A stretch of DNA of 64,000 bases from Deltaproteobacteria bacterium (lineage in GTDB: Bacteria > UBA10199 > GCA-002796325 > JACPFF01). Position numbers and translations under genes: made by a program. The notes under the pieces were generated by a model. That model did no database searches. It saw only the letters and a list, made by a program, of their open reading frames with translations, and was not told the DNA's origin. Positions 1,187 to 45,648 of this stretch are shown in pieces. The stretch's first letter is position 1, and each line of letters starts with the position of its first letter. Where the stretch lies: positions 1 through 64,000 of the forward strand of contig JACPFF010000017.1 in assembly GCA_016183065.1 (NCBI GenBank). The letters run 5' to 3'.

Positions 1187-1382
1187 TCATCGCTTGAACT
1201 TCCCCGTGTGCAAGTAGGTCATCTATTGGCGGGGCTCGCGTCGCCCCCTCCACGGGCAAAGCCCGTGGAGCCTCCCCCTCTCGCTCGCGGAGCTCGCTGA
1301 CCGCCTTCGGCGGTCCGGACACCTGTGGCGACAAGAGCGTGGTCCTCATCGCTTGAACTTCCCCGTGTGCAAGTAGGTCATC
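1187..1382. repeat. 37-bp direct repeat flanking a palindromic repeat element
   Basis: Bases 1187-1223 and 1346-1382 are identical (37 of 37). Each starts TCATCGCTTGAACTTCC. The right copy is the 3' end of the zinc peptidase gene, including its stop codon; the left copy is therefore a duplicated gene end. Between them lies the 122-bp GC-rich palindromic element. The structure looks either like an insertion with an unusually long target duplication or like a tandem duplication of the gene end with the element between the copies. Confidence 0.9.
1224..1345. repeat. GC-rich mosaic palindromic repeat, copy 1
   Basis: The element starts with the family leader (C)TATTGGCGGGGCTCGCGT and then has the hairpin CCACGGGC-AAA-GCCCGTGG and a second hairpin around CCGCCTTCGGCGG. 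The same modules recur at 13558-13794, 21362-21478, 37919-38002, 44822-44990 and 45436-45690. It is intergenic here, downstream of the zinc peptidase gene. Stem bases differ between copies but stay paired, which points to selection for, or descent of, a folded structure. No transposase of its own is visible. Confidence 0.85.
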
Positions 1383-12900: not shown

Positions 12901-13554
12901 CTCCGTCAAAAGATCGAACGGCTTGGTGGCGTAAATACCGATGCCATCGGCGAATGGGAAGAGTTGCAGCAGCGGCACACGTTTTTGGTCCAGCAGGGAG
13001 AAGATCTCGAGCAGTCGATCGAGGCCCTGCACCGGGCCATCCAGAAAATCAATCGCATCAGCCGGGAACGGTTCCGGGAAACCTTTGACGAGATCCGCGG
13101 GCGTTTCCAGCTCCTCTTCCCGAAACTCTTTCGTGGCGGGCAAGCCGATCTCGTGTTGACCGATGAAGATCAGGTGCTCGAGTCGGGGATCGAAATTGTC
13201 GCGCAGCCGCCGGGCAAAAAGTTGCAGAGCGTGACGCTCTTGTCGGGTGGTGAGAAGGCGTTGACCGCGGTGGCCCTGATCTTTGCCATGTTTCTCGTCC
13301 GGCCGAGTCCCTTCTGTCTCCTCGATGAGGTGGACGCCCCGCTCGACGATGCCAATATCGATCGCTTTAACGACCTCATCCGTGAGATGACCGGCTATTC
13401 GCAATTCATTTTGATCACCCATAACAAGCGGACCATGGAACTGGCCGACTCGCTCTACGGTGTGACCATGGAGGAGCCGGGCGTTTCGAAACTCGTTTCC
13501 GTGCGACTCAATCAGGAACAGACCGGCCCGGCCTCCGAAACCGTTGCGGCTTAG
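9961..13554 (+). CDS. smc: Chromosome segregation protein SMC
   Basis: A 1197-residue ATPase of the condensin complex. N-terminal Walker A is GPNGSGKSN, and the opening MRLKSLELIGFKSFVDRTVI is typical. Two long coiled coils (residues about 170-500 and 670-1010) flank a hinge (around 520-640; GVLGDVAQIV...AVGAILGERIQGIVV). The C-terminal head has the signature LLSGGEKALTAVALIFA and Walker B FCLLDEVDAPLDD. Dimers with ScpA/ScpB compact the chromosome and help segregate origins; the partners are not in this window. Length is usual. Upstream is a 190-bp divergent region; the start has only a G-rich stretch as possible ribosome site. Confidence 0.97.
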   Translation: MRLKSLELIGFKSFVDRTVIHFEPGVTGVVGPNGSGKSNVVDAIRWVMGEQSAKHLRGGAMQDVIFAGSQKRPALGMASVFLTFDNSDGRAPAEYSNYAEITVGRRLYRSGESEYYINKTPCRLKDVIDLFLGTGTGTKAYSIVEQGQIGLIVSAKPEDRRLLIEEAAGISKFKYRREAAQRKMEATRGNLLRLRDITSELDRQIQSLQRQVKKAERYQRLTEELRQLELSEASHQWTTWRSTVTEIETRCVALREEEGSVAAQLGQCETAIETGRLTLAEIERELSATQERAYALQNTIHLLEATITHKTQEIEDVEARGKTAVEEVTQLAVRREEWLHALTTANDEKVTVDLATAVASEEAEQLEQEVAQVNAQLAAMATTAQDVQQRVVQCVQHISVAETGRQHATQRAEEFAADVADGETQVTALELQLTETRRLAGEEATALDTYRQLSMRLDEERDTLVATLQQQEAELARLEGELEEQRSVLERAASRLHSLEELAGNFEGYHEGVRAILQQQGGASPLAGVLGDVAQIVETAPEYERAVGAILGERIQGIVVESHQSGVAALAFLKEASRGRGTFIPRTLRTTSRVWPDIADAGVVGPLTHFVRFHDDDAAVGQYLIGDVLLVRDLTTALRLWEEETPPATYVTLDGEMVDAAGVITGGGSADHAAGILARRRELEGLRPDVIRLRTAVEATENIRQRVVERVQHLQAQVGALSQSRHDTEIDLVNRQKDLDHRQREVERISAEQAQAAHDLAERRRLQAQAVREGEMLRVTLCDAIAAREAAEAQLAQCRAGEAACVVRRDAMQAALHERRTILASHEERARAVEKEIQRLVEVTTDAVCTMERKQLDIEEGKTVVVAARREIVRQREELGGAVQQAEEGSRRQQEIQQRYQGLSEEVRQHEASLRLVRKRHDEATAAKHAIEIELTQQRERIGFLEREISEKYHVFLAEQAADFLQASFDAETVGTQVGELRQKIERLGGVNTDAIGEWEELQQRHTFLVQQGEDLEQSIEALHRAIQKINRISRERFRETFDEIRGRFQLLFPKLFRGGQADLVLTDEDQVLESGIEIVAQPPGKKLQSVTLLSGGEKALTAVALIFAMFLVRPSPFCLLDEVDAPLDDANIDRFNDLIREMTGYSQFILITHNKRTMELADSLYGVTMEEPGVSKLVSVRLNQEQTGPASETVAA

Positions 13555-13557
13555 CGT

Positions 13558-13794
13558 CTATTGGAGGGGCTCACGTCGCCCCCCCAACGGGCAAAGCCCG
13601 TTGGGTCCCCCCCTCTCGCGCGCGGTGCGCGCTGGGTCCCCGGACTCGGTCGTCGCCACTGCCCCCCCAACGGGCAAAGCCTGGTCAAGGCCCAGCTGTG
13701 CTGGGCCGCGAAGCAAAGTCGAAGACTTTGCGGAGTGTAATGGAGCCCCCCCTCTCGCGCGCGGTGCGCGCTGGGCCGTGGGGCCCCACTATTG
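13558..13794. repeat. GC-rich mosaic palindromic repeat, copy 2 (composite)
   Basis: The element starts four bases after the smc stop codon with CTATTGGAGGGGCTCACGT. It contains CAACGGGC-AAA-GCCCGTTG, CGCGCGCGGTGCGCGC, the module CGGACTCGGTCGTCGCCAC, a second CAACGGGC half, a module with CAAAGTCGAAGACTTTG (13713-13729), and ends GTGGGGCCCCAC. It looks like two or three units fused. The hairpins could also end smc transcription. The module with the CAAAGTC/GACTTTG hairpin is shared almost unchanged with copy 6 at 45436-45690. Confidence 0.85.
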
Positions 13795-17629: not shown

Positions 17630-19285
17630 ATGCAAATCATTTCCTGGGCCATCCTCTGGGGTGGCATGGCATTTTTCTTTTACGGCCTCTTTCTTCTCCG
17701 CGAGGGGTTGCAACATGTGGCGGGCGATCGGCTCCGCGGTCTCTTGCTCCGTCTGACGAACAATCGCCTGAAGGGCTTCGGGTTTGGGGCGCTGGTGACG
17801 ATGATTTTCCAGAGCAGCTCGGCCACGACCGCCATGTTGGTCAGTTTTGCCGGCGCAGGGCTCCTCTCGTTGCCACAGGCCTTTGCCGTGATTCTCGGTT
17901 CGGATGTTGGCACCACCGCCGTGGTGTTTGTGATCGCGGAGCGACAACTGACGCACTATGCGCTCTTCGGTGTGGCGGTTGGCGTTGGCCTGCGGTTGTG
18001 GGGCCCCCGCAGCTGGTGGCGCTATCTCGGTGAAGTGCTCTTCGGTTTCGGTCTCGTTTGTTACGGGATCTCGCTGATGGTCGAGGCCATGCAGCCCCTG
18101 CGGGAGAGCGAACTCGTTTCCATCGTCTTTGCCCATCTGGCGACACATCCGCTCCTCTCCATTGTTGGGGCCGCACTCTTTGCCGCCGCCGTCCATTCGA
18201 GCGCCGCTACACTCGGCGTGGCCTTGAGTCTTGCCATGGCCGGGATTGTCGATCTGGCCGGCGCGCTCCCGATCGTGCTCGGCGCCAATATCGGCACGAC
18301 GATTACGGCGGTGATGGCGGCCGTGGGGCGCGACCTCAATTCGCAACGGGTGGCGGCAGCACATGTCATCACGAAGCTGGGTGGGGCCATCGCGGTATTT
18401 CCGCTCCTGCCGCTGGCGGCGGCCAGTCTGCAACATGTGACCAACACATTGCCATGGCTGCAAGGACCGTTTCACGGTGCACTGAGTCTCCAGATCGCCC
18501 TGGCCCACCTCTCTTTTAATCTGGCAATCGCGCTCCTTTTCCTCCCCTTTCTCCCCCTCGGATTGCGTCTGGTCATCCGTCTCCTTCCGGGCGAGCCGCA
18601 ACCGATCGCGGCCTTTACGCCGCGCTATCTCGACGCGCGCACGCTCGAGACGCCGTCGCTGGCCTTCACGCAGGTGCATCGGGAGGTGGTGCGACTCGGC
18701 AACATTGCGCATGAGCTCTTTCTCAACTCTCTCGATCTCTTTGAGAAAAAGGAAAAAGTGGAACAGTTGATTGCCGATGTGGATCAACAAGACGACTATA
18801 TCGATCGCCTGGAAAAAGCGATCCGCTTCTTTTTGGCACGCCTTTCACAGGAATCCCTGACACCGCAGCAGAGCCGGACACAAATTCGTCTGCTGCGCAT
18901 TGCGGGTAATTTTGAGGAGATTGGCGATGCCATCTCCAAAGAGATGAAAGTCCTTGCGCGCAAGCAGTGTGACAAACAATGTACATTTTCCGGGGAAGGG
19001 TGGCGGGAACTCCGGAATTTCCACAGTCATGTGGATGAAATTTTTACCATGACCATTGCCTGTCTGACAACGCGCGATGCGGTCCTGGCGGGAAAGATCG
19101 AGGTCAAAACCGAGGCATTGACCGAACTGGAGACGTACTCGCGCGCCACCCATTTGCAGCGACTCAACGAAAAACTACGGGAAAGCATTGAGACGAGTTC
19201 AATCCACCTCGATCTCCTCCGGATTCTCGCGCGGGTGGCCGCAAAACTCCAGCAGATCGCCAAACTCGCCATTAGTGGGGATTAG
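17630..19285 (+). CDS. Na+/phosphate cotransporter family protein (NptA/PhoU fusion)
   Basis: A 551-residue membrane protein. Two inverted halves carry the family motifs QSSSATTAML (residues about 64-73) and HSSAATLGVAL (around 189-199), each followed by a helix pair with GSDVGTT and GANIGTT. About nine to ten membrane segments cover residues 1-320. The C-terminal 220 residues are PhoU-like helices (FEEIGDAISKEMKVLARK). It probably takes up phosphate with sodium, with the PhoU part for control. The gene stands alone, 141 bp after ftsY, and its stop overlaps the convergent HEPN gene by 3 bases. Confidence 0.88.
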   Translation: MQIISWAILWGGMAFFFYGLFLLREGLQHVAGDRLRGLLLRLTNNRLKGFGFGALVTMIFQSSSATTAMLVSFAGAGLLSLPQAFAVILGSDVGTTAVVFVIAERQLTHYALFGVAVGVGLRLWGPRSWWRYLGEVLFGFGLVCYGISLMVEAMQPLRESELVSIVFAHLATHPLLSIVGAALFAAAVHSSAATLGVALSLAMAGIVDLAGALPIVLGANIGTTITAVMAAVGRDLNSQRVAAAHVITKLGGAIAVFPLLPLAAASLQHVTNTLPWLQGPFHGALSLQIALAHLSFNLAIALLFLPFLPLGLRLVIRLLPGEPQPIAAFTPRYLDARTLETPSLAFTQVHREVVRLGNIAHELFLNSLDLFEKKEKVEQLIADVDQQDDYIDRLEKAIRFFLARLSQESLTPQQSRTQIRLLRIAGNFEEIGDAISKEMKVLARKQCDKQCTFSGEGWRELRNFHSHVDEIFTMTIACLTTRDAVLAGKIEVKTEALTELETYSRATHLQRLNEKLRESIETSSIHLDLLRILARVAAKLQQIAKLAISGD

Positions 19286-19719
19286 GGGGTTCTCTCCGAC
19301 CTCGCGACGTAGAGAAAAAAATCCTCCGCTGCGGAGACCAGTTTTCGGGCGCCGGATTCCGAGAAGTGGGCTTCATAATCAGCGTTTTCTCGGAGTTCCT
19401 TAGCAACCTGGAACGCGTCAACAATATGTACCGGGAGATCACCATCTTCGACGTACAGTGCCTCGAGGGCGACGCGAAGGCAATAGTGACTTTTCTCTCT
19501 ATACCCCTTTGCGTAGAGCAAGGCACGCGCCAAATGGAACATGGCATAATAACTTTGGATAGTGCTCCATTTATATGACTGCCGCGCCAGCCCGGCCTTG
19601 GCTTCTTGCAGATCGGTTGCTGCCGCCTCTATTTCTTTCCCGACCAATTGTGTTGCAGCAGACGCAATTTTCAATCCATTTTTCTTCAGGCACTTTTCAA
19701 ATGCTACTTTCGATCCCAT
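19282..19719 (-). CDS. HEPN-domain protein of a second nucleotidyltransferase module
   Basis: A 145-residue helical protein with STIQSYYAMFHLARALLYAK and YREKSHYCLRVALEAL, the two core helices of the HEPN domain. The ATG at 19719 lies inside the upstream nucleotidyltransferase gene (16-base overlap), so the two are translated as a pair. By analogy to HEPN/MNT systems it would be the toxin or the bound partner. It is less similar to the HEPN protein at 14180-14596 than two copies of one system would be, so the modules are independent acquisitions. Confidence 0.75.
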   Translation of the reverse strand: MGSKVAFEKCLKKNGLKIASAATQLVGKEIEAAATDLQEAKAGLARQSYKWSTIQSYYAMFHLARALLYAKGYREKSHYCLRVALEALYVEDGDLPVHIVDAFQVAKELRENADYEAHFSESGARKLVSAAEDFFLYVARSERTP

Positions 19720-20246
19720 AGCACGATTCCTTGTTGGAGGGATTGATAGAATTCGGGTTCCGTGTGCCGCAGGTCGAGCCATTCCTCGGGAGTTTTCAAT
19801 ATCAATTGAACATGCCTTTTCAACGTGCTCTGTGAGAGTTTTCGGCGCACCTCCCTGTCCCGTGCACTCACGACGAAGAGATCATAATCGCTGGTGGAGG
19901 TATACTGACCGGTGGCGCGACTACCAAAGAGGAGAACCTTCACGGCAATAGGCGCAAGGGTCTGTATGAGGGGCTGGAGGGTAAGAAGCGTGTCTGCCAC
20001 CATGAGATAGCGAAGCCAGGCATGATCGATGTTGAGTGAAAAACCATCGCGATTTTTTTCCCGTATCAATACGCCGATTTTTTCCAATGCCCGTATAGCA
20101 TTATAAATAGACGATTGCGAAATGTTTGGAAGGAGGGTCGTAATCTGGGAACCTCGCATCATGAGATCTGGATGGTGCAATACGCAACCCAGAACCTTCC
20201 ATAATGGGGTATTGTAGAGCGTTTTTTTTATTTTAGACGATTTCAT
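19704..20246 (-). CDS. Winged-helix nucleotidyltransferase (antitoxin/autoregulator-like)
   Basis: A 180-residue two-domain protein. Residues about 5-65 form a winged helix (ISQSSIYNAIRALEKIGVLI), and residues 95-150 form an MNT nucleotidyltransferase with LLFGSRATGQ and the DxD in TSDYDLFVV. The fusion of a DNA-binding domain to the antitoxin enzyme suggests self-regulation from the palindrome in the promoter (20259-20278). It is followed with 16-base overlap by the HEPN gene. The coding region and promoter are clearly more AT-rich than the flanking pyrF and transporter genes, a sign of transfer. Confidence 0.8.
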   Translation of the reverse strand: MKSSKIKKTLYNTPLWKVLGCVLHHPDLMMRGSQITTLLPNISQSSIYNAIRALEKIGVLIREKNRDGFSLNIDHAWLRYLMVADTLLTLQPLIQTLAPIAVKVLLFGSRATGQYTSTSDYDLFVVSARDREVRRKLSQSTLKRHVQLILKTPEEWLDLRHTEPEFYQSLQQGIVLWDRK

Positions 20247-20333: not shown

Positions 20334-21068
20334 ATGCAGCCGAAGGATCGCATCTTTGTTGCGCTTGACGTTCCAAATCTCCCGAGGGCACTGGGCATCG
20401 TCGCTGCGGTGCAGGATCAGATTGGGGGCGTGAAGGTGGGGCTCGAGCTCCTGACTAGTGTCGGGGCTCCGACGGTGGTCGAAGCCATGTCGGCCTCGGG
20501 GCTCCCGATTTTTTTTGATGCCAAATTTTGCGACATGCCCAATACGGTTGCCGGGGCCGTCGAGGCCGCGACACGCCTTGGTGTGGCCATGATGACCGTG
20601 CATGCCCTCGGGGGGATCCCGATGCTGGAGGCCGCTGTGGCCGCAGCAGACCGGGCTGCGTTATTGGGACCGCGGCCGAAAATCCTGGCAGTGACCATAT
20701 TGACAAGCCTGACGTGGGAGGCCCTCGGCCAGTTGCGTGTCGCACCGCTCGCGAGTGAAGAGGCCCTGCAAGAGTATGTCGTCCATCTCGCGTGCATGGC
20801 CCAGCAGGCCGGTTGTCACGGCGTGGTGGCCTCGCCGCACGAAGTGGCGGCGATCCGTGCCGCGTGCGGGCCGGATCTCACCATCGTGACGCCGGGGGTT
20901 CGTCCGGCATGGAGTGTGCGTGGCGACCAGCAGCGTTTTTCAAGCCCGCGCGATGCGTGCGAAGCCGGCGCAGATTATCTCGTGATCGGCCGGCCGATCA
21001 CCCAGCCGCCCCCGGAAATCGGGACCCCGGCTGCGGCCGTGGCACGCATTGTCGGGGAACTGGCATGA
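20334..21068 (+). CDS. pyrF: Orotidine 5'-phosphate decarboxylase
   Basis: A 244-residue TIM-barrel enzyme that converts OMP to UMP, the last step of pyrimidine synthesis. It has the opening FVALDVPNLPRAL, the K of VKVGLELL, the catalytic stretch DAKFCDMPNTV (usually D-x-K-x-x-D) and the C-terminal VTPGVRPAW and ADYLVIGRPIT. All key residues are present. It overlaps pyrE by four bases (ATGA), so the last two de novo steps are coupled. Confidence 0.95.
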   Translation: MQPKDRIFVALDVPNLPRALGIVAAVQDQIGGVKVGLELLTSVGAPTVVEAMSASGLPIFFDAKFCDMPNTVAGAVEAATRLGVAMMTVHALGGIPMLEAAVAAADRAALLGPRPKILAVTILTSLTWEALGQLRVAPLASEEALQEYVVHLACMAQQAGCHGVVASPHEVAAIRAACGPDLTIVTPGVRPAWSVRGDQQRFSSPRDACEAGADYLVIGRPITQPPPEIGTPAAAVARIVGELA

Positions 21069-21781
21069 CGACCTCCTCCATTGAGCAACTTCTCATGACA
21101 TCGGGAGCACTCTTGAGAGACGGCCATTTTCTCTATGCCTCCGGACGGCATGGCAATGCCTACTTCAACAAGGATGCCCTCTATACCGATCCCGTGCTGA
21201 TGAAACAGCTCGGTGAGGCCATGGCCTTGCCGTTTATCGGGACAGCGATCGAGGCCGTGGCTGGGCCGACGGTGGGTGGGGTCATCCTGGCACAGTGGGT
21301 GGCCTATCATCTGCAAGAGAAGACCGGACGCCGCATTGTGGCCTGCTTTGCCGAGGAGCGCCCCACTATTGGAGGGGCTCACGTACCCTGCGGCTCCGCC
21401 TCCGGGTACTCCCTCGTCCACCCGCTTCGTGGGTGCCCGGACTCGGTCGTCGCCACTGCGGCAGGCACAAAGGAGCGCTTTTTTGGTCGGGGGTATGATC
21501 GCCTGATTGCCAGTCGCCGGGTCTTGGTGGTGGAGGATGTCCTGACCACTGGTGGGTCCGTGCGGCAGGTTGTGGATGCCGTGCGACGTGTCGGTGGCAT
21601 TCCCGTGGGGGTCAGCGCCCTCTGTAATCGTGGAGGTGTGACGATAGAGTCGCTCGCGGTCCCCACATTACACGCCCTATTGTCCCTGATCCTGGAGAGT
21701 TGGCCCGCGCAAGATTGTCCCTTGTGTCGCCGCGGTATTCCGATTAATACCTCGCTCGGAAAAGGTGGGAAATCCGCCTGA
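21065..21781 (+). CDS. pyrE: Orotate phosphoribosyltransferase with an in-frame repeat insertion
   Basis: A 238-residue enzyme that makes OMP from orotate and PRPP. It has the short-type OPRT pattern (SGRHGNAYFNKDALYTDP, VAGPTVGGVILAQ) and the PRPP-binding VLVVEDVLTTGGS. Residues 100-138 are encoded by a copy of the palindromic repeat (21362-21478) flanked by AGGAGCGC direct repeats. Removing one repeat and the element (117 bp, 39 codons) restores CFAEER-FFGRGYD, a normal sequence at this point. The site is the flexible loop that closes over the active site in OPRTs, so activity may be affected unless the loop tolerates the insert. The frame stays open to a normal C-terminus (CPLCRRGIPI), which argues for a functional gene. 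Confidence 0.93.
   Translation: MTTSSIEQLLMTSGALLRDGHFLYASGRHGNAYFNKDALYTDPVLMKQLGEAMALPFIGTAIEAVAGPTVGGVILAQWVAYHLQEKTGRRIVACFAEERPTIGGAHVPCGSASGYSLVHPLRGCPDSVVATAAGTKERFFGRGYDRLIASRRVLVVEDVLTTGGSVRQVVDAVRRVGGIPVGVSALCNRGGVTIESLAVPTLHALLSLILESWPAQDCPLCRRGIPINTSLGKGGKSA
21362..21478. repeat. GC-rich mosaic palindromic repeat, copy 3, inside pyrE
   Basis: The element includes CCACTATTGGAGGGGCTCACGT-type leader, paired arms around GGAGG/CCTCC-like segments and the module CGGACTCGGTCGTCGCCAC. AGGAGCGC at 21354-21361 and 21471-21478 may be the target duplication (8 bp). Size 117 bp keeps the pyrE frame open. It is read as about 39 residues rich in Gly, Ser and Val. Confidence 0.85.
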
Positions 21782-21784
21782 AGA

Positions 21785-21897
<113 letters not shown>

Positions 21898-21903
21898 CCT
21901 TTA

Positions 21904-22079
21904 CTAAGGAGTTTGTACCCCACTATACAGATGACACAGGATGATGAGCCGAGACAAGGAAGATGAGCGAAAAAATTCGAGGCGTAGCCGTCGCTACGTT
22001 GAGGATTTTTTCGTGAAATCTGACGCAGTCGCAGGCCATCAGCCGAAGTCAGATGTATAGTGGGGTATGAACTCCTTAG
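21904..22079. mobile_element. Palindromic MITE with TA target duplication (176 bp)
   Basis: The ends are inverted repeats: CTAAGGAGTTTGTACCCC at the left against the complement of GGGGTATGAACTCCTTAG at the right, and pairing goes on to ACTATACA. TA flanks both sides (21902-21903 and 22080-22081), the signature of IS630/mariner-type insertion. The centre (21968-22013) is a further hairpin with CGAAAAAATTCGAGGCGTAG and its partner. No coding capacity. The right TA provides the A of the dnaX ATG. Confidence 0.7.
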
Positions 22080-22080
22080 T

Positions 22081-23778
22081 ATGTACCAAGCTCTCGCACG
22101 AAAATATCGCCCCCAAACCTGGGGCGAGGTGATCGGTCAAGACCATGTGACGCAGACGCTGCAGAACGCTGTTGTGCAGCAGCGACTGCATCATGCCTAT
22201 CTCTTTTGCGGCGCGCGCGGGGTCGGAAAGACGACAGTGGCACGGCTCCTGGCCAAGACGGTCAATTGCGTGCAGCGCGGCGCGTCGAGCGAACCGTGCA
22301 ATGCGTGCGAGAGCTGCCGCGAGATCACCAATGGCCATGCCCTCGATGTGCAGGAGATCGACGGGGCCTCCAATACGGGCGTCGACGACGTGCGGGAAAT
22401 CCGCGAACGGATCCAGTATCTCCCCGCGGAGACGCGCTACAAGGTCTATATCATCGATGAAGTGCACATGTTGTCCAAGGCGGCTTTCAATGCTCTCCTC
22501 AAGACACTGGAAGAACCGCCACCCCATGTCCTCTTTATCTTTGCGACGACCGAGCCGCAAAAAATTCCTGCCACGATCCTGTCGCGCTGCCAACGCTACG
22601 ATTTTCGCCGGGTTGCGGCGGAAGAGATCGTCTCGACACTTCGTCATATTGCGACCGCCGAGGGGATGACCGTGGGTGATGATCTCCTCCATCTCCTGGC
22701 TTACGAGGCCGAGGGGGGATTACGCGATGCGGAATCGCTCTTTGATCAGGTCATTGCCGCGTGCGGGACGGCCGTCACGGTCCCCCAGGTACGCAATTTG
22801 CTGGGATTGACTGATCGCATCATGCTGCTCGAATTGGTCCGCGCCATTGTGAAGCGTGACGCAAAGACGGCACTGGGCCATCTGGAGACCGCATTTCAGA
22901 GCGGGGGGAATCTCCCCCAATTGGCCCACGATCTTCTCGAATTTTTTCGCCATCTCTGGGTGCGGGTCTCCTGCGGCGAGCTCCCGCATCGTGCCACTAT
23001 GCCGACCGATGAAGTCGAGGCGGTGGAGACCCTGGCGTGCGGGATGACCGTGGAAGAGGGAGCGCAGTGGTTTGCCATCCTCTTTCGCGGCATCGACAGC
23101 GTGATTCGCGGGCGATTCCCCAAACTGGCCATGGAAGCGGTCCTGCTCCAGATGGTGCAAGTCACGCCGATGACGTCCATTTCGGCGTTAATCGATCGTG
23201 TGGAGGCGATGCTCGCCACGGGCGCTGGGACGCAAACGCCGACCTCAGCTGCCACCATGCCGCAGACACCCACGTCGCGTGCGTCGGCACCGAGTGCAGC
23301 GGCACAGGGGAGAGCCCCCATCAACGCACCGTCTCCTGCGCCTTCGGTGGCGGGGTCCGCGGAGGCATCCGCAGGCGAACCGGGATTTGCCTGGAATGCG
23401 TTTTTCCAGAAACTGAGGAGGTCGCGTCCGCAACTGGCCTCCATCGTTGAGCACGGGCACGTGCAGCGTGCGGATGTGGAGCGGGTGGAACTCCGGTTTC
23501 CGCGCGATTCATTGTATGCGGCCATGTTGCAGGAAGCGGACCGGTTGGCACAATTCGAGGCATTGGTGCACGAACAGTTTGGGAGCACGTGCCGGGTACA
23601 GATTCGTCAGATCGACGGACTGACCTCGGCCGAGCGGCAGGCCACAGTGCGGGCCGAGCGGCAGAAGGACCAGCATCGCCGGCATTCGGCGGCGCTTGAG
23701 CACGCGTTGGTGCGGGAGGCCGGGGAAGTTTTTGGGGCAGAGATTGCCGAGGTCAAGGTCTATGGTGAATCCACTTGA
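22081..23778 (+). CDS. dnaX: DNA polymerase III subunit gamma/tau
   Basis: A 565-residue clamp-loader ATPase. MYQALARKYRPQTWGEVIGQ opens the protein, then come P-loop GARGVGKTT, a zinc knuckle with Cys residues in CVQRGASSEPCNACESC, Walker B YIIDEVHMLS and sensor-1 LFIFATTEPQKIPATILSRC. Domain III and a Pro/Ala-rich linker (residues about 385-430) lead to a tau-like C-terminal domain. No Shine-Dalgarno is present before ATG 22081 because a palindromic element ends directly there. A GTG at 22060 is in frame but lies in the element. The 3' end overlaps recR by 17 bases, and no ybaB gene lies between as in many bacteria. Confidence 0.95.
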   Translation: MYQALARKYRPQTWGEVIGQDHVTQTLQNAVVQQRLHHAYLFCGARGVGKTTVARLLAKTVNCVQRGASSEPCNACESCREITNGHALDVQEIDGASNTGVDDVREIRERIQYLPAETRYKVYIIDEVHMLSKAAFNALLKTLEEPPPHVLFIFATTEPQKIPATILSRCQRYDFRRVAAEEIVSTLRHIATAEGMTVGDDLLHLLAYEAEGGLRDAESLFDQVIAACGTAVTVPQVRNLLGLTDRIMLLELVRAIVKRDAKTALGHLETAFQSGGNLPQLAHDLLEFFRHLWVRVSCGELPHRATMPTDEVEAVETLACGMTVEEGAQWFAILFRGIDSVIRGRFPKLAMEAVLLQMVQVTPMTSISALIDRVEAMLATGAGTQTPTSAATMPQTPTSRASAPSAAAQGRAPINAPSPAPSVAGSAEASAGEPGFAWNAFFQKLRRSRPQLASIVEHGHVQRADVERVELRFPRDSLYAAMLQEADRLAQFEALVHEQFGSTCRVQIRQIDGLTSAERQATVRAERQKDQHRRHSAALEHALVREAGEVFGAEIAEVKVYGEST

Positions 23779-37910: not shown

Positions 37911-37918
37911 CCCTGCGG

Positions 37919-38002
37919 CTATTACAGGGGCTCACGTACCCTGCAGCGAAGCCTCCGGGGACTTTCTCGTCCACCCCGCTGCGCTGGGTCGTGGGGCCCC
38001 AC
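37919..38002. repeat. GC-rich mosaic palindromic repeat, copy 4
   Basis: It starts CTATTACAGGGGCTCACGT nine bases after the rho stop codon and ends GTGGGGCCCCAC. Inner parts are shorter and more diverged than in the other copies (CAGCGAAGCCTCC, CCCCGCTGCGCTGGG). It may act as a terminator of rho. With the MITE at 38051-38229 it fills the 319-bp gap between rho and the next gene. Confidence 0.8.
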
Positions 38003-38050
38003 TCTCCGCCGGAGGAGATCGAATGCGAAATTTGTTGATGCGGGATCTTA

Positions 38051-38229
38051 GGGTCTGACCGGAAATACCTATTCATTTTGGCATCTCATCTTGGGACCAT
38101 CTTTGCCCGATCTTCACTCGCAAAATCCTCAACATAGCCTGGCTATGCCTCCGGTTTTGCTCCCTCAGATCGGCCACATCTGGCCCCAAGCTGAGCGCCA
38201 AAACAGAACAGGTATTTCCGGTCAGACCC
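38051..38229. mobile_element. Palindromic MITE with TNA target duplication (179 bp)
   Basis: Perfect 20-bp terminal inverted repeats start GGGTCTGACCGGAAATAC (38051-38070) and end with the complement (38210-38229). TTA flanks both sides (38048-38050 and 38230-38232). The centre is a hairpin (38120-38160) around CAAAATCCTCAACATAGCC and GGCTATGCCTCCGGTTTTG. No ORF. The right TTA is the stop codon of the DUF2233 gene. Its end GGTCAGACCC equals the end of the IS fragment at 147-156, so an IS5/IS1031-like transposase could have moved it. Confidence 0.8.
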
Positions 38230-39009
38230 TTACTTTGGCACGACAATGACCGCATCGGTGACGGTGCTCAAGTTTGGCACATGCACACGGAACCTGCCGA
38301 TGCGGGCGTAGAGTTGCGTGGAGCGGCCACCGTCAAGATTGAGGGCATCGCGACAGGCAAAACCGCCCTCGGCCGTCGCACGGCGGAGGAGGTCCGCCAG
38401 GGTGCTGGTCGACATGGGGGCGTTTTCGGTGGCGGCAACAACGATGCGATGTTCAGGGGTAATGCAGAGTGCGGAGCGTTCGGCCATGCCCTCTTTGAGG
38501 GGGGGCACCCGTCCGTCGACAATGAGGCGCGGGCCGGACTGGACAGCCATGCGCGTTTGCGACGAGGGCCGATAGGCCCATGGTGGGGCAATGTGTGGCG
38601 TGGTCCCTTCAAGCGAAAAGATCCCCCACCAACTGGTCGATTTGAGGGGCGTGCGTCTCTTCCCGTTTTGAATGCGCAGGCCGAGTGGCTGGAGTTCCGG
38701 GCTGAAAAACCCGCCGTTGATGGCAACGCGTGCCTTGGTTCGCTCGGCGAGTTCTCTGACCGATGCGCTCTGTTGGCCAAAGTCGCTGGCAAAGGCCACG
38801 TCGAGGCGATAGTGTTGGGGATCCACGCGGAAGGCGTGCAGAAAGCTCCCCATGTTATCGCTGCCGAACGAGACCATGGCATATTCGAGACCGGGCGCCA
38901 GGGTCCGCCACGTCGTGGCCTTGGCGTGGGCCGTACATGGTGCACAGATCACCATGCAACACAACGCGAGGAGGCGGGAATATGGTGCGTTAACTTTTCC
39001 TGAGTACAT
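38230..39009 (-). CDS. Phosphodiester glycosidase / DUF2233 family protein
   Basis: A 259-residue exported protein with a signal peptide (residues about 8-29, ending TAHA). It carries the DUF2233 marks RVAINGGFF, MAVQSGPRLIVDG and DALNLDGGRSTQLY, shared with the lysosomal uncovering enzyme and bacterial exopolysaccharide-linked proteins. It likely acts on a phosphodiester-linked sugar in the periplasm. The stop codon is formed by the target duplication of the adjacent MITE. A large inverted repeat lies upstream. Confidence 0.85.
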   Translation of the reverse strand: MYSGKVNAPYSRLLALCCMVICAPCTAHAKATTWRTLAPGLEYAMVSFGSDNMGSFLHAFRVDPQHYRLDVAFASDFGQQSASVRELAERTKARVAINGGFFSPELQPLGLRIQNGKRRTPLKSTSWWGIFSLEGTTPHIAPPWAYRPSSQTRMAVQSGPRLIVDGRVPPLKEGMAERSALCITPEHRIVVAATENAPMSTSTLADLLRRATAEGGFACRDALNLDGGRSTQLYARIGRFRVHVPNLSTVTDAVIVVPK

Positions 39010-44745: not shown

Positions 44746-45648
44746 ATGCGACAACGAGTCTTCACGCGACTATTTTGGATCGGTCTCGGATCCCTTGTCT
44801 CTCTGACCAGTCCCCATGCCACTATTGGAGGGGCTCACGTTGCCCCCTCCAGCGGCAAAGCCGCTGGAGCCTCCCCCTCAGCGCCGCGGTGCGGCTGGGT
44901 CGTGGGGCCCCGGACGTCAATCCGGGGGGTGTCGTGCCCAGGCGAAGCCTCCTCCCAGGGTGCCACGGGCGTGAGCCCGTGGGGCCCCACGATCATCACC
45001 CTGCTCAAACGGACAATTCCCCCGACCGCCGTGACGACCGCCGCCTGGATGGACGATGAATTCCGGGCGATCATCCAGGAGGTGGCACGTCTCTATGCCA
45101 TCGATCCGGCGATCATCGCGGCCATCATCCATGTGGAGTCGAACTTTAACCCGCGGGCCCGCTCGCATCGAGGGGCGATGGGACTGATGCAGCTGATGCC
45201 GGGGACGGCCCGGATGATGGGGGTCTCGGCGCCTTTTGACCCCGTCCAAAATATTCGGGGGGGGACCCGGTATTTCCGGTCGCTGCTCGACCAATTTGAG
45301 GGAGATATCCTGCTGGCGCTGGCCGCCTATAATGCCGGACCTGGGGCGGTCGCCCGCTACGGACGGATTCCCCCATATGGGGAAACGGAGCGGTACGTCC
45401 CCAAGGTCGTCCACTATTACCACCGCTTTGCCAGACTATTACAGGGGCTCGCGTCGCCCCCCCAACGGGCAAAGCCCGTTGGGTCCCCCCCTCTCGCGCG
45501 CAGTGCGCGCTGGGGTACTTCCTCGTCCACCCAGCTTCGCTGGGTCCCCGGACTCGGTCGTCGCCACACCCCCCTCCAGCGGCACAGCCGGGTCAAGGCC
45601 CAGCTTTGCTGGGCCGCGAAGCAAAGTCGAAGACTTTGCGGAGTGTGA
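44746..45648 (+). CDS. Lytic transglycosylase (SLT) with two in-frame repeat insertions
   Basis: A 300-residue exported muramidase-like enzyme. AAGGAGGT lies before the ATG and the signal peptide runs to about residue 24. Residues about 100-225 are the SLT domain: the catalytic Glu in AIIHVESNFNPRA, GAMGLMQLMPGTARMMG, and ALAAYNAGPGAVARYG. Residues about 26-82 and from 231 to the end are encoded by palindromic repeat copies 5 and 6, giving a Gly/Ala/Pro-rich linker after the signal peptide and a basic 70-residue tail. The enzyme domain itself is intact. The 135-bp AT-rich stretch upstream contains two DnaA-box-like sequences but no clear promoter. Confidence 0.88.
   Translation: MRQRVFTRLFWIGLGSLVSLTSPHATIGGAHVAPSSGKAAGASPSAPRCGWVVGPRTSIRGVSCPGEASSQGATGVSPWGPTIITLLKRTIPPTAVTTAAWMDDEFRAIIQEVARLYAIDPAIIAAIIHVESNFNPRARSHRGAMGLMQLMPGTARMMGVSAPFDPVQNIRGGTRYFRSLLDQFEGDILLALAAYNAGPGAVARYGRIPPYGETERYVPKVVHYYHRFARLLQGLASPPQRAKPVGSPPLARSARWGTSSSTQLRWVPGLGRRHTPLQRHSRVKAQLCWAAKQSRRLCGV
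44822..44990. repeat. GC-rich mosaic palindromic repeat, copy 5, inside the transglycosylase gene
   Basis: It starts CTATTGGAGGGGCTCACGT and ends GTGGGGCCCCAC. Inside are CAGCGGC-AAA-GCCGCTG, GGACGTCAATCC, and CACGGGC-GTGA-GCCCGTG. It lies between the signal peptide and the SLT domain and is open in the coding frame. Compared with copies 1 and 2 the stem bases have changed on both sides. Confidence 0.85.

Follow-up and report, generated by a model that had tools for sequence, protein, structure and literature searches.

The orotate phosphoribosyltransferase (OPRT) gene pyrE (21065..21781, plus strand, in the 64,000-nucleotide stretch that was analysed and is called the window here) very probably harbours a short-form copy of a palindromic, non-autonomous mobile element, inserted in frame in a loop of the enzyme and read through. 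The gene is an uninterrupted ORF for 238 amino acids with a match to Pfam Pribosyltran, and its ATG overlaps the stop codon of an upstream ORF (20334-21068) that was assigned to pyrF by its sequence. A bacterial small SRP RNA gene (21793-21892, Rfam match) is located directly 3' of pyrE. NCBIfam pyrE_Therm and pyrE match the protein in two stretches, one on each side of the insert. The PRPP-binding motif VLVVEDVLTTGGS is intact and the OPRT fold family is recognised by Pfam, NCBIfam and PDB matches. By the PDB matches, the insert lies after the strand that ends in AEER and before the RRGF/GRGYD segment. We take the region from AEER to GRGYD to be the mobile loop of OPRTs that closes over PRPP. 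Structure prediction from the single PyrE sequence reached a pLDDT of 36, too low for the model to be of use.

Extent and architecture of the insert in pyrE

The repeat copy covers positions 21361..21459 of the plus strand, is a short form without the downstream modules of longer copies and is translated to RPTIGGAHVPCGSASGYSLVHPLRGCPDSVVATA; the insert-encoded stretch of PyrE includes GCPDSVVATAAGTK. An alignment of orthologues, which the initial annotation had proposed as a check, upheld the insertion: all 16 relatives are free of the insert and have the short OPRT form that had been predicted for the protein without it. PyrE reads CFAEER, followed by 33 residues and AGTKERFFGRGYD, and the nearest relative, G001 of the same family, reads CYAEER-VII-AGSKERCFGRGYD (DNA of G001: GAA GAG CGC GTT ATA ATA GCG GGT TCT AAG GAG CGC, coding for E E R V I I A G S K E R). 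The extra residues were correctly placed by the initial annotation directly after AEER, and they lie before the native AGTKERFFGRGYD. Their number was overestimated, as the net gain relative to G001 is 90 bp or 30 codons instead of 117 bp or 39 codons, and the stretch from ~21458 to 21478 is native sequence by comparison with G001. The same 90 bp separate a left CCACT (21363..21367) from a right CCACT (21453..21457), both on the plus strand.

The insert had also been described as flanked by an 8-bp direct repeat. The 8-mer AGGAGCGC is indeed present at both positions of the plus strand, 21354..21361 (native codons for EER) and 21471..21478 (native codons for KER). However, the insert-free pyrE of G001 already has both motifs, the right one as AGGAGCGC and the left one with a difference of one base. 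They therefore represent ancestral EER/KER coding sequence and no product of the insertion, and the pair was ruled out as a target-site duplication. In the whole window, 6 occurrences of the 8-mer were counted (3.1 expected).

The copy starts with a 5' tag, CCCCACTATTGGAGGGG (21361..21377), in which CCCC and GGGG can pair and after which the conserved tag continues with CTCACGT. The tag is followed on the plus strand by hairpin A, the inverted repeat GTACCCTGCGGCTCCGCCTCCGGGTAC (21383..21409), and by hairpin B, CCACCCGCTTCGTGGGTG (21418..21435, direct reading). In the copies L011 and L016 hairpin A shows a paired change to GTCCCC...GGGGAC, and hairpin B is ACCCAGCTTCGCTGGGT in other copies, with pairing kept. 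The pyrE copy ends after hairpin B, at GTCGCCAC. It may derive from a longer copy that lost internal sequence, or it may be a short form that was inserted directly. Removal of the segment between GTCGCCAC CCAC and the terminal CCAC from a 240-bp copy would give the pyrE form; direct insertion is equally possible.

The repeat family in the genome

Counting itself, the pyrE segment has 47 matching places in this genome, and the best of them reach 98-99% identity over ~95 bp; positions 8-106 of the query, for example, match C27:79629-79727 at 99%. The matches at 46 further places mean that the repeat nature of the segment is not due to chance. The 5' tag AGGGGCTCACGT has ~158 matches in the genome with at most one mismatch, compared to 12 for the reversed pattern, and 115 elements were counted in the 335 kb of sequence taken around copies. 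The modules follow each other in the order tag CTATTGGAGGGGCTCACGT, hairpin A, hairpin B with GGACTCGGTCGTCGCCAC, third module CTCCAGCGGCAAAGCCGCTGGAG and end ...GGGGCCCCAC. The elements are modular overall and about 65-360 bp long; net lengths of 168 and 240 bp are usual in this genome, and the pyrE copy is a short version of this 168-240 bp element. Five further copies are present on the plus strand of the window: a copy of the core type with a 32-bp direct repeat on its flanks (1219..1299), one of the intergenic type (13547..13792), a short one (37915..37990), one with an open frame that continues into the downstream ORF (44815..44994) and one of which the matched part covers 45430..45567. 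Nearly all elements outside the verified genes appear intergenic, as is expected if most insertions into genes are lost. At L076 (G000:C9:30884-30934) a 16-bp 5' tag, TACAGGGGCTCACGTC, is present in tandem triplicate.

RNA folding of the 125-nt stretch gave no support for structure (z of -0.1); support for structure came instead from covariation among copies. Rfam models did not match the element, the sole match being the SRP RNA that adjoins pyrE. Phage and plasmid collections searched with the element yielded none, and a repeat-pattern scan of genome contigs gave one match, in Streptomyces, that was judged to be chance.

In-frame copies in other genes

The genes carA, murF, acpS and that for a PRK10673-like esterase each have a copy in frame between two stretches of recognised protein sequence. 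In-frame copies in a ribonucleotide reductase (RNR) intein, a MltD/LysM transglycosylase and a FAS-like protein are supported by Pfam, and so is one in cinA near its C-terminus. The alignments of the relatives' MurF and CarA break at the insert site. The view of the initial annotation that this is a rare case thus holds for pyrE itself and fails for the event, which recurs in eight or more further genes of this genome and in genes of sister families. Most in-gene copies use the sense frame TIGGAHV.... Of 66 full copies, 59 have no stop in frame 0, compared to about 37 predicted by composition; the copies are not independent of each other. Among verified in-gene copies of which both ends are recognised, all eight have a net length divisible by three, as have 26 of 58 others (Fisher p = 0.005, an indicative value since the in-gene set was partly chosen for open frames). 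Two candidate in-gene cases, C23:41545 and C15:220539, were dropped: one has no recognised upstream homologue and a net length that is not a multiple of three, and the other appears upstream of its gene. The argument that genes are oriented along the open strand was also abandoned, as all three sense frames are open in the core, too. In the RNR intein (L009, G000:C3:12000-12249) the copy lies antisense yet in frame, one mobile element inside another.

The insertion of a palindromic repeat in frame in the PyrE loop, as claimed initially, is thus confirmed by the genome copies together with the 16 insert-free orthologues, and the uninterrupted ORF from 21065 to 21781 agrees with the further claim that the frame is open, the C-terminus intact and the insert tolerated. 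The initial annotation went on to propose that the repeat has been turned into an enzyme segment. In this form selection would keep the loop for a change in PRPP binding, in contacts of the oligomer or in the regulation of the enzyme. The insert does sit where the PRPP-covering loop begins, and carA, also a gene of pyrimidine synthesis, bears a copy. Against this, the same sequence is present in unrelated proteins such as MurF, AcpS, CinA, the intein and LysM linkers, and the differences among 168- and 240-bp copies are spread about evenly over the three codon positions (23, 22 and 30). The pyrE copy is 99% identical to the acpS copy and so bears no sign of loop-specific change. We consider such a service improbable, and because the copies have no clear excess of change at third codon positions, a tolerated passenger is the simpler reading.

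Removal of the segment by RNA splicing or after translation, which would leave a normal enzyme, could be suspected from the strong hairpins and from the RNR intein, which itself contains a copy. However, the verified in-gene copies are free of stops and those of which both ends are recognised are multiples of three, neither of which splicing would require; the element has no splicing domain and no Rfam family; and genes that lost their frame appear broken, namely the IS200-type tnpA and the gamma-glutamyltranspeptidase gene (ggt), in which an out-of-frame copy severs the apparent C-terminal part. Removal is therefore very unlikely. Repeats do cause misassembly, and the assembly is 89% complete in 30 contigs, so that an inactive pyrE, a pseudogene or an artefact had to be considered. 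This is hardly credible, since both halves come from one PyrE and are in frame with VLVVEDVLTTGGS intact, the upstream ORF is overlapped, no second pyrE was seen in the genome (in the assembly of this completeness) and several housekeeping genes show the same arrangement. Given near-identical DNA at dozens of other places and 16 orthologues without the segment, there is a practically negligible chance that the loop is native to this PyrE subgroup; only the variation of OPRT loop lengths speaks for it.

Insertion of a mobile element and read-through thus remains the preferred explanation, for which we assume the following course. The element would have multiplied in this genome and, as a related three-hairpin form, across the class, and it presumably entered pyrE at a CCAC-type site within the mobile loop. 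As the copy has a whole number of codons and a stop-free main sense frame, pyrE could be read through to an OPRT with about 30 additional loop residues. Selection would purge most intragenic insertions, and the survivors would be in frame and at sites where the fold bears them. Judged from the sequence, the insert-bearing PyrE is presumably translated in the cell and enzymatically active. The pyrE case on its own is an ordinary member of the in-frame set and is notable for its position in a catalytic loop.

A three-hairpin core conserved in the class

With the acpS copy as query, 24 of 60 relatives, belonging to many families, had a match to the third module, with identities of roughly 80-97%. 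The corresponding class-wide core, TAYAGGGGCTCGCGTCGCCCCCTCCANCGGCAAAGCCGNTGGAGCCTCCCCCTCAACGCCGCNNTGCGGCTG, has ~70 bp and three hairpins (L167-L206 of the relatives, alignment A2) and is without Rfam match. It is conserved across families far more strongly than proteins are; PyrE itself is 46-58% identical in same-order and nearest same-class relatives. Watson-Crick covariation is evident from 33 aligned copies with the three hairpins: 8 pairs have changed on both sides in 27 cells and on one side in a single cell. The scarcity of wobble intermediates suggests a constraint on DNA hairpins and not on RNA.

Eight of ~40 sampled copies of the relatives, distributed over seven genomes, are in frame in genes recognised by NCBIfam (those for TypA, IspE, Mfd, NadC, ArsS, ArfB, a QrcB-like oxidoreductase and crotonyl-CoA reductase). 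Most of these copies encode, from the antisense strand, a peptide similar to GEGEAPxALPxEGATxAP, and places coding for it are present in 19 of 46 genomes of the class. The class probably carries structure-conserved palindromic elements that insert repeatedly in frame, a system like the Rickettsia palindromic elements (RPE) outside Rickettsia. If this is true, one mobile peptide recurs in many unrelated housekeeping proteins, and the in-frame spread of palindromic DNA through coding genes would not be peculiar to Rickettsia and its reductive genomes. The element would be a natural survey of protein sites that accept 30-80 foreign residues. With PyrE, CarA, MurF, AcpS, TypA, NadC and Mfd and their insert-free orthologues, simple assays could measure what a transposed loop costs the enzyme or does for it. 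Repeat-encoded segments are to be expected in gene calls and structure models for this class.

Element ends and mode of movement

The left boundary between flank and element is CNA|CTATTGGAGGGGCTC, and the right end of the element is GGGGCCCCAC. In the family of this genome the left flank prefers C-N-A at positions -3 to -1 (0.88, 0.26 and 1.29 bits), and the right flank is near random. A target duplication at fixed offset was not found in this family (best z of 2.2 over several hundred offset pairs). The palindromes sit at or near the element ends, and the combination of terminal inverted repeats with target duplications that defines classic DDE-type MITEs is absent. A target preference on the left only, palindromes near the ends and the lack of a transposase gene form, by analogy, the pattern of IS200/IS605-derived elements. 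We tentatively infer that the element may be moved in trans by an IS200/IS605-like (Y1/HUH) transposase, a possibility to which we give less than even weight. Exact flanking direct repeats of 19-32 bp are present at 6 of 43 copies of the relatives and at 2 of 108 own copies (8 of 151 together, among them the copy at 1219-1299 of the window, L173, L180, L194, L196, L198 and L205), with about none in mismatched controls among the relatives. Such long and variable duplications do not fit the rule of no duplication and an IS200/IS605-like mechanism. The flanking repeats at L198 and L205 apparently are 3' parts of tRNAs.

No transposase bearing the element ends and no TnpB were found in this genome, the assembly of which is fragmented and 89% complete. 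The Y1_Tnp matches comprise a RAYT-like gene with another repeat on its flanks and the IS200-type tnpA relic broken by a copy. In the latter (L136, G000:C8:65820-66180), the repeat interrupts the relic at an apparent HUH motif.

Comparison with known palindromic elements

According to PMC10969869 and PMC3733652, which describe the work of Ogata et al. (2000, 2002), RPE are palindromes of ~100-150 bp that are present between genes and in frame in unrelated metabolic genes and are tolerated by the host. As described there, the likeness to our element extends to a dispersed palindromic repeat, in-frame copies in unrelated genes with insert-free relatives and a preferred translated frame that yields a recognisable peptide. 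In contrast to these accounts, the present element belongs to an unrelated class, in many families of which it is present, is modular with ~65-360 bp and has a CNA preference on the left flank in its own genome. It is likened to RPE in kind, by these descriptions, and is not claimed as a member of RPE-1 to RPE-10.

The PATEs of Haloquadratum are palindrome-associated and related to IS605-type transposons (PMC3119063). They resemble our element by the lack of classic terminal inverted repeats, palindromes near the ends, no target duplication, a short 5' target sequence and an absent transposase gene (PMC3119063). They differ in that no IS605-type transposon with matching ends is found in the present genome, where in-frame intragenic copies are prominent. 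As ends shared with a Y1-transposase or TnpB transposon were not found in the 89% complete genome, the element is not filed as a PATE or as IS200/IS605-derived. REPs tagged with GTAG/CGTC and associated with RAYTs are also hairpin repeats, some of them within ORFs including DNA repair genes (PMC3733652), whereas the present elements are longer, have several hairpins and are without an established GTAG/CGTC end tag. Unlike in REP-RAYT pairs, the RAYT-like gene here carries a different flanking repeat. QMITE1/2 of Coxiella burnetii are similar with about 50-80 copies and an occasional in-frame gene fusion (PMC5896051), but possess terminal inverted repeats as well as direct repeats, and where they occur in genes of known function they are located at the 3' ends (PMC5896051). 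The type of event has thus been described before in Rickettsia (PMC10969869, PMC3733652) and, in a less striking form, for REPs and the MITEs of Coxiella (PMC3733652, PMC5896051). Novel aspects of the present case are its lineage, how many housekeeping genes are affected and a core whose hairpins are conserved throughout the class.

Other features of the window

A different, MITE-like element is located between the SRP RNA gene and dnaX (21902-22081); its inverted repeat arms of 54 bp are 78% complementary and 72 nt apart. A long imperfect palindrome with two 90-nt arms of 72% complementarity is present at 38050-38230. Two adjoining small ORFs on the minus strand (19282-20246) are HEPN-like and MNT nucleotidyltransferase-like by reading of the sequence and possibly constitute a toxin-antitoxin pair.
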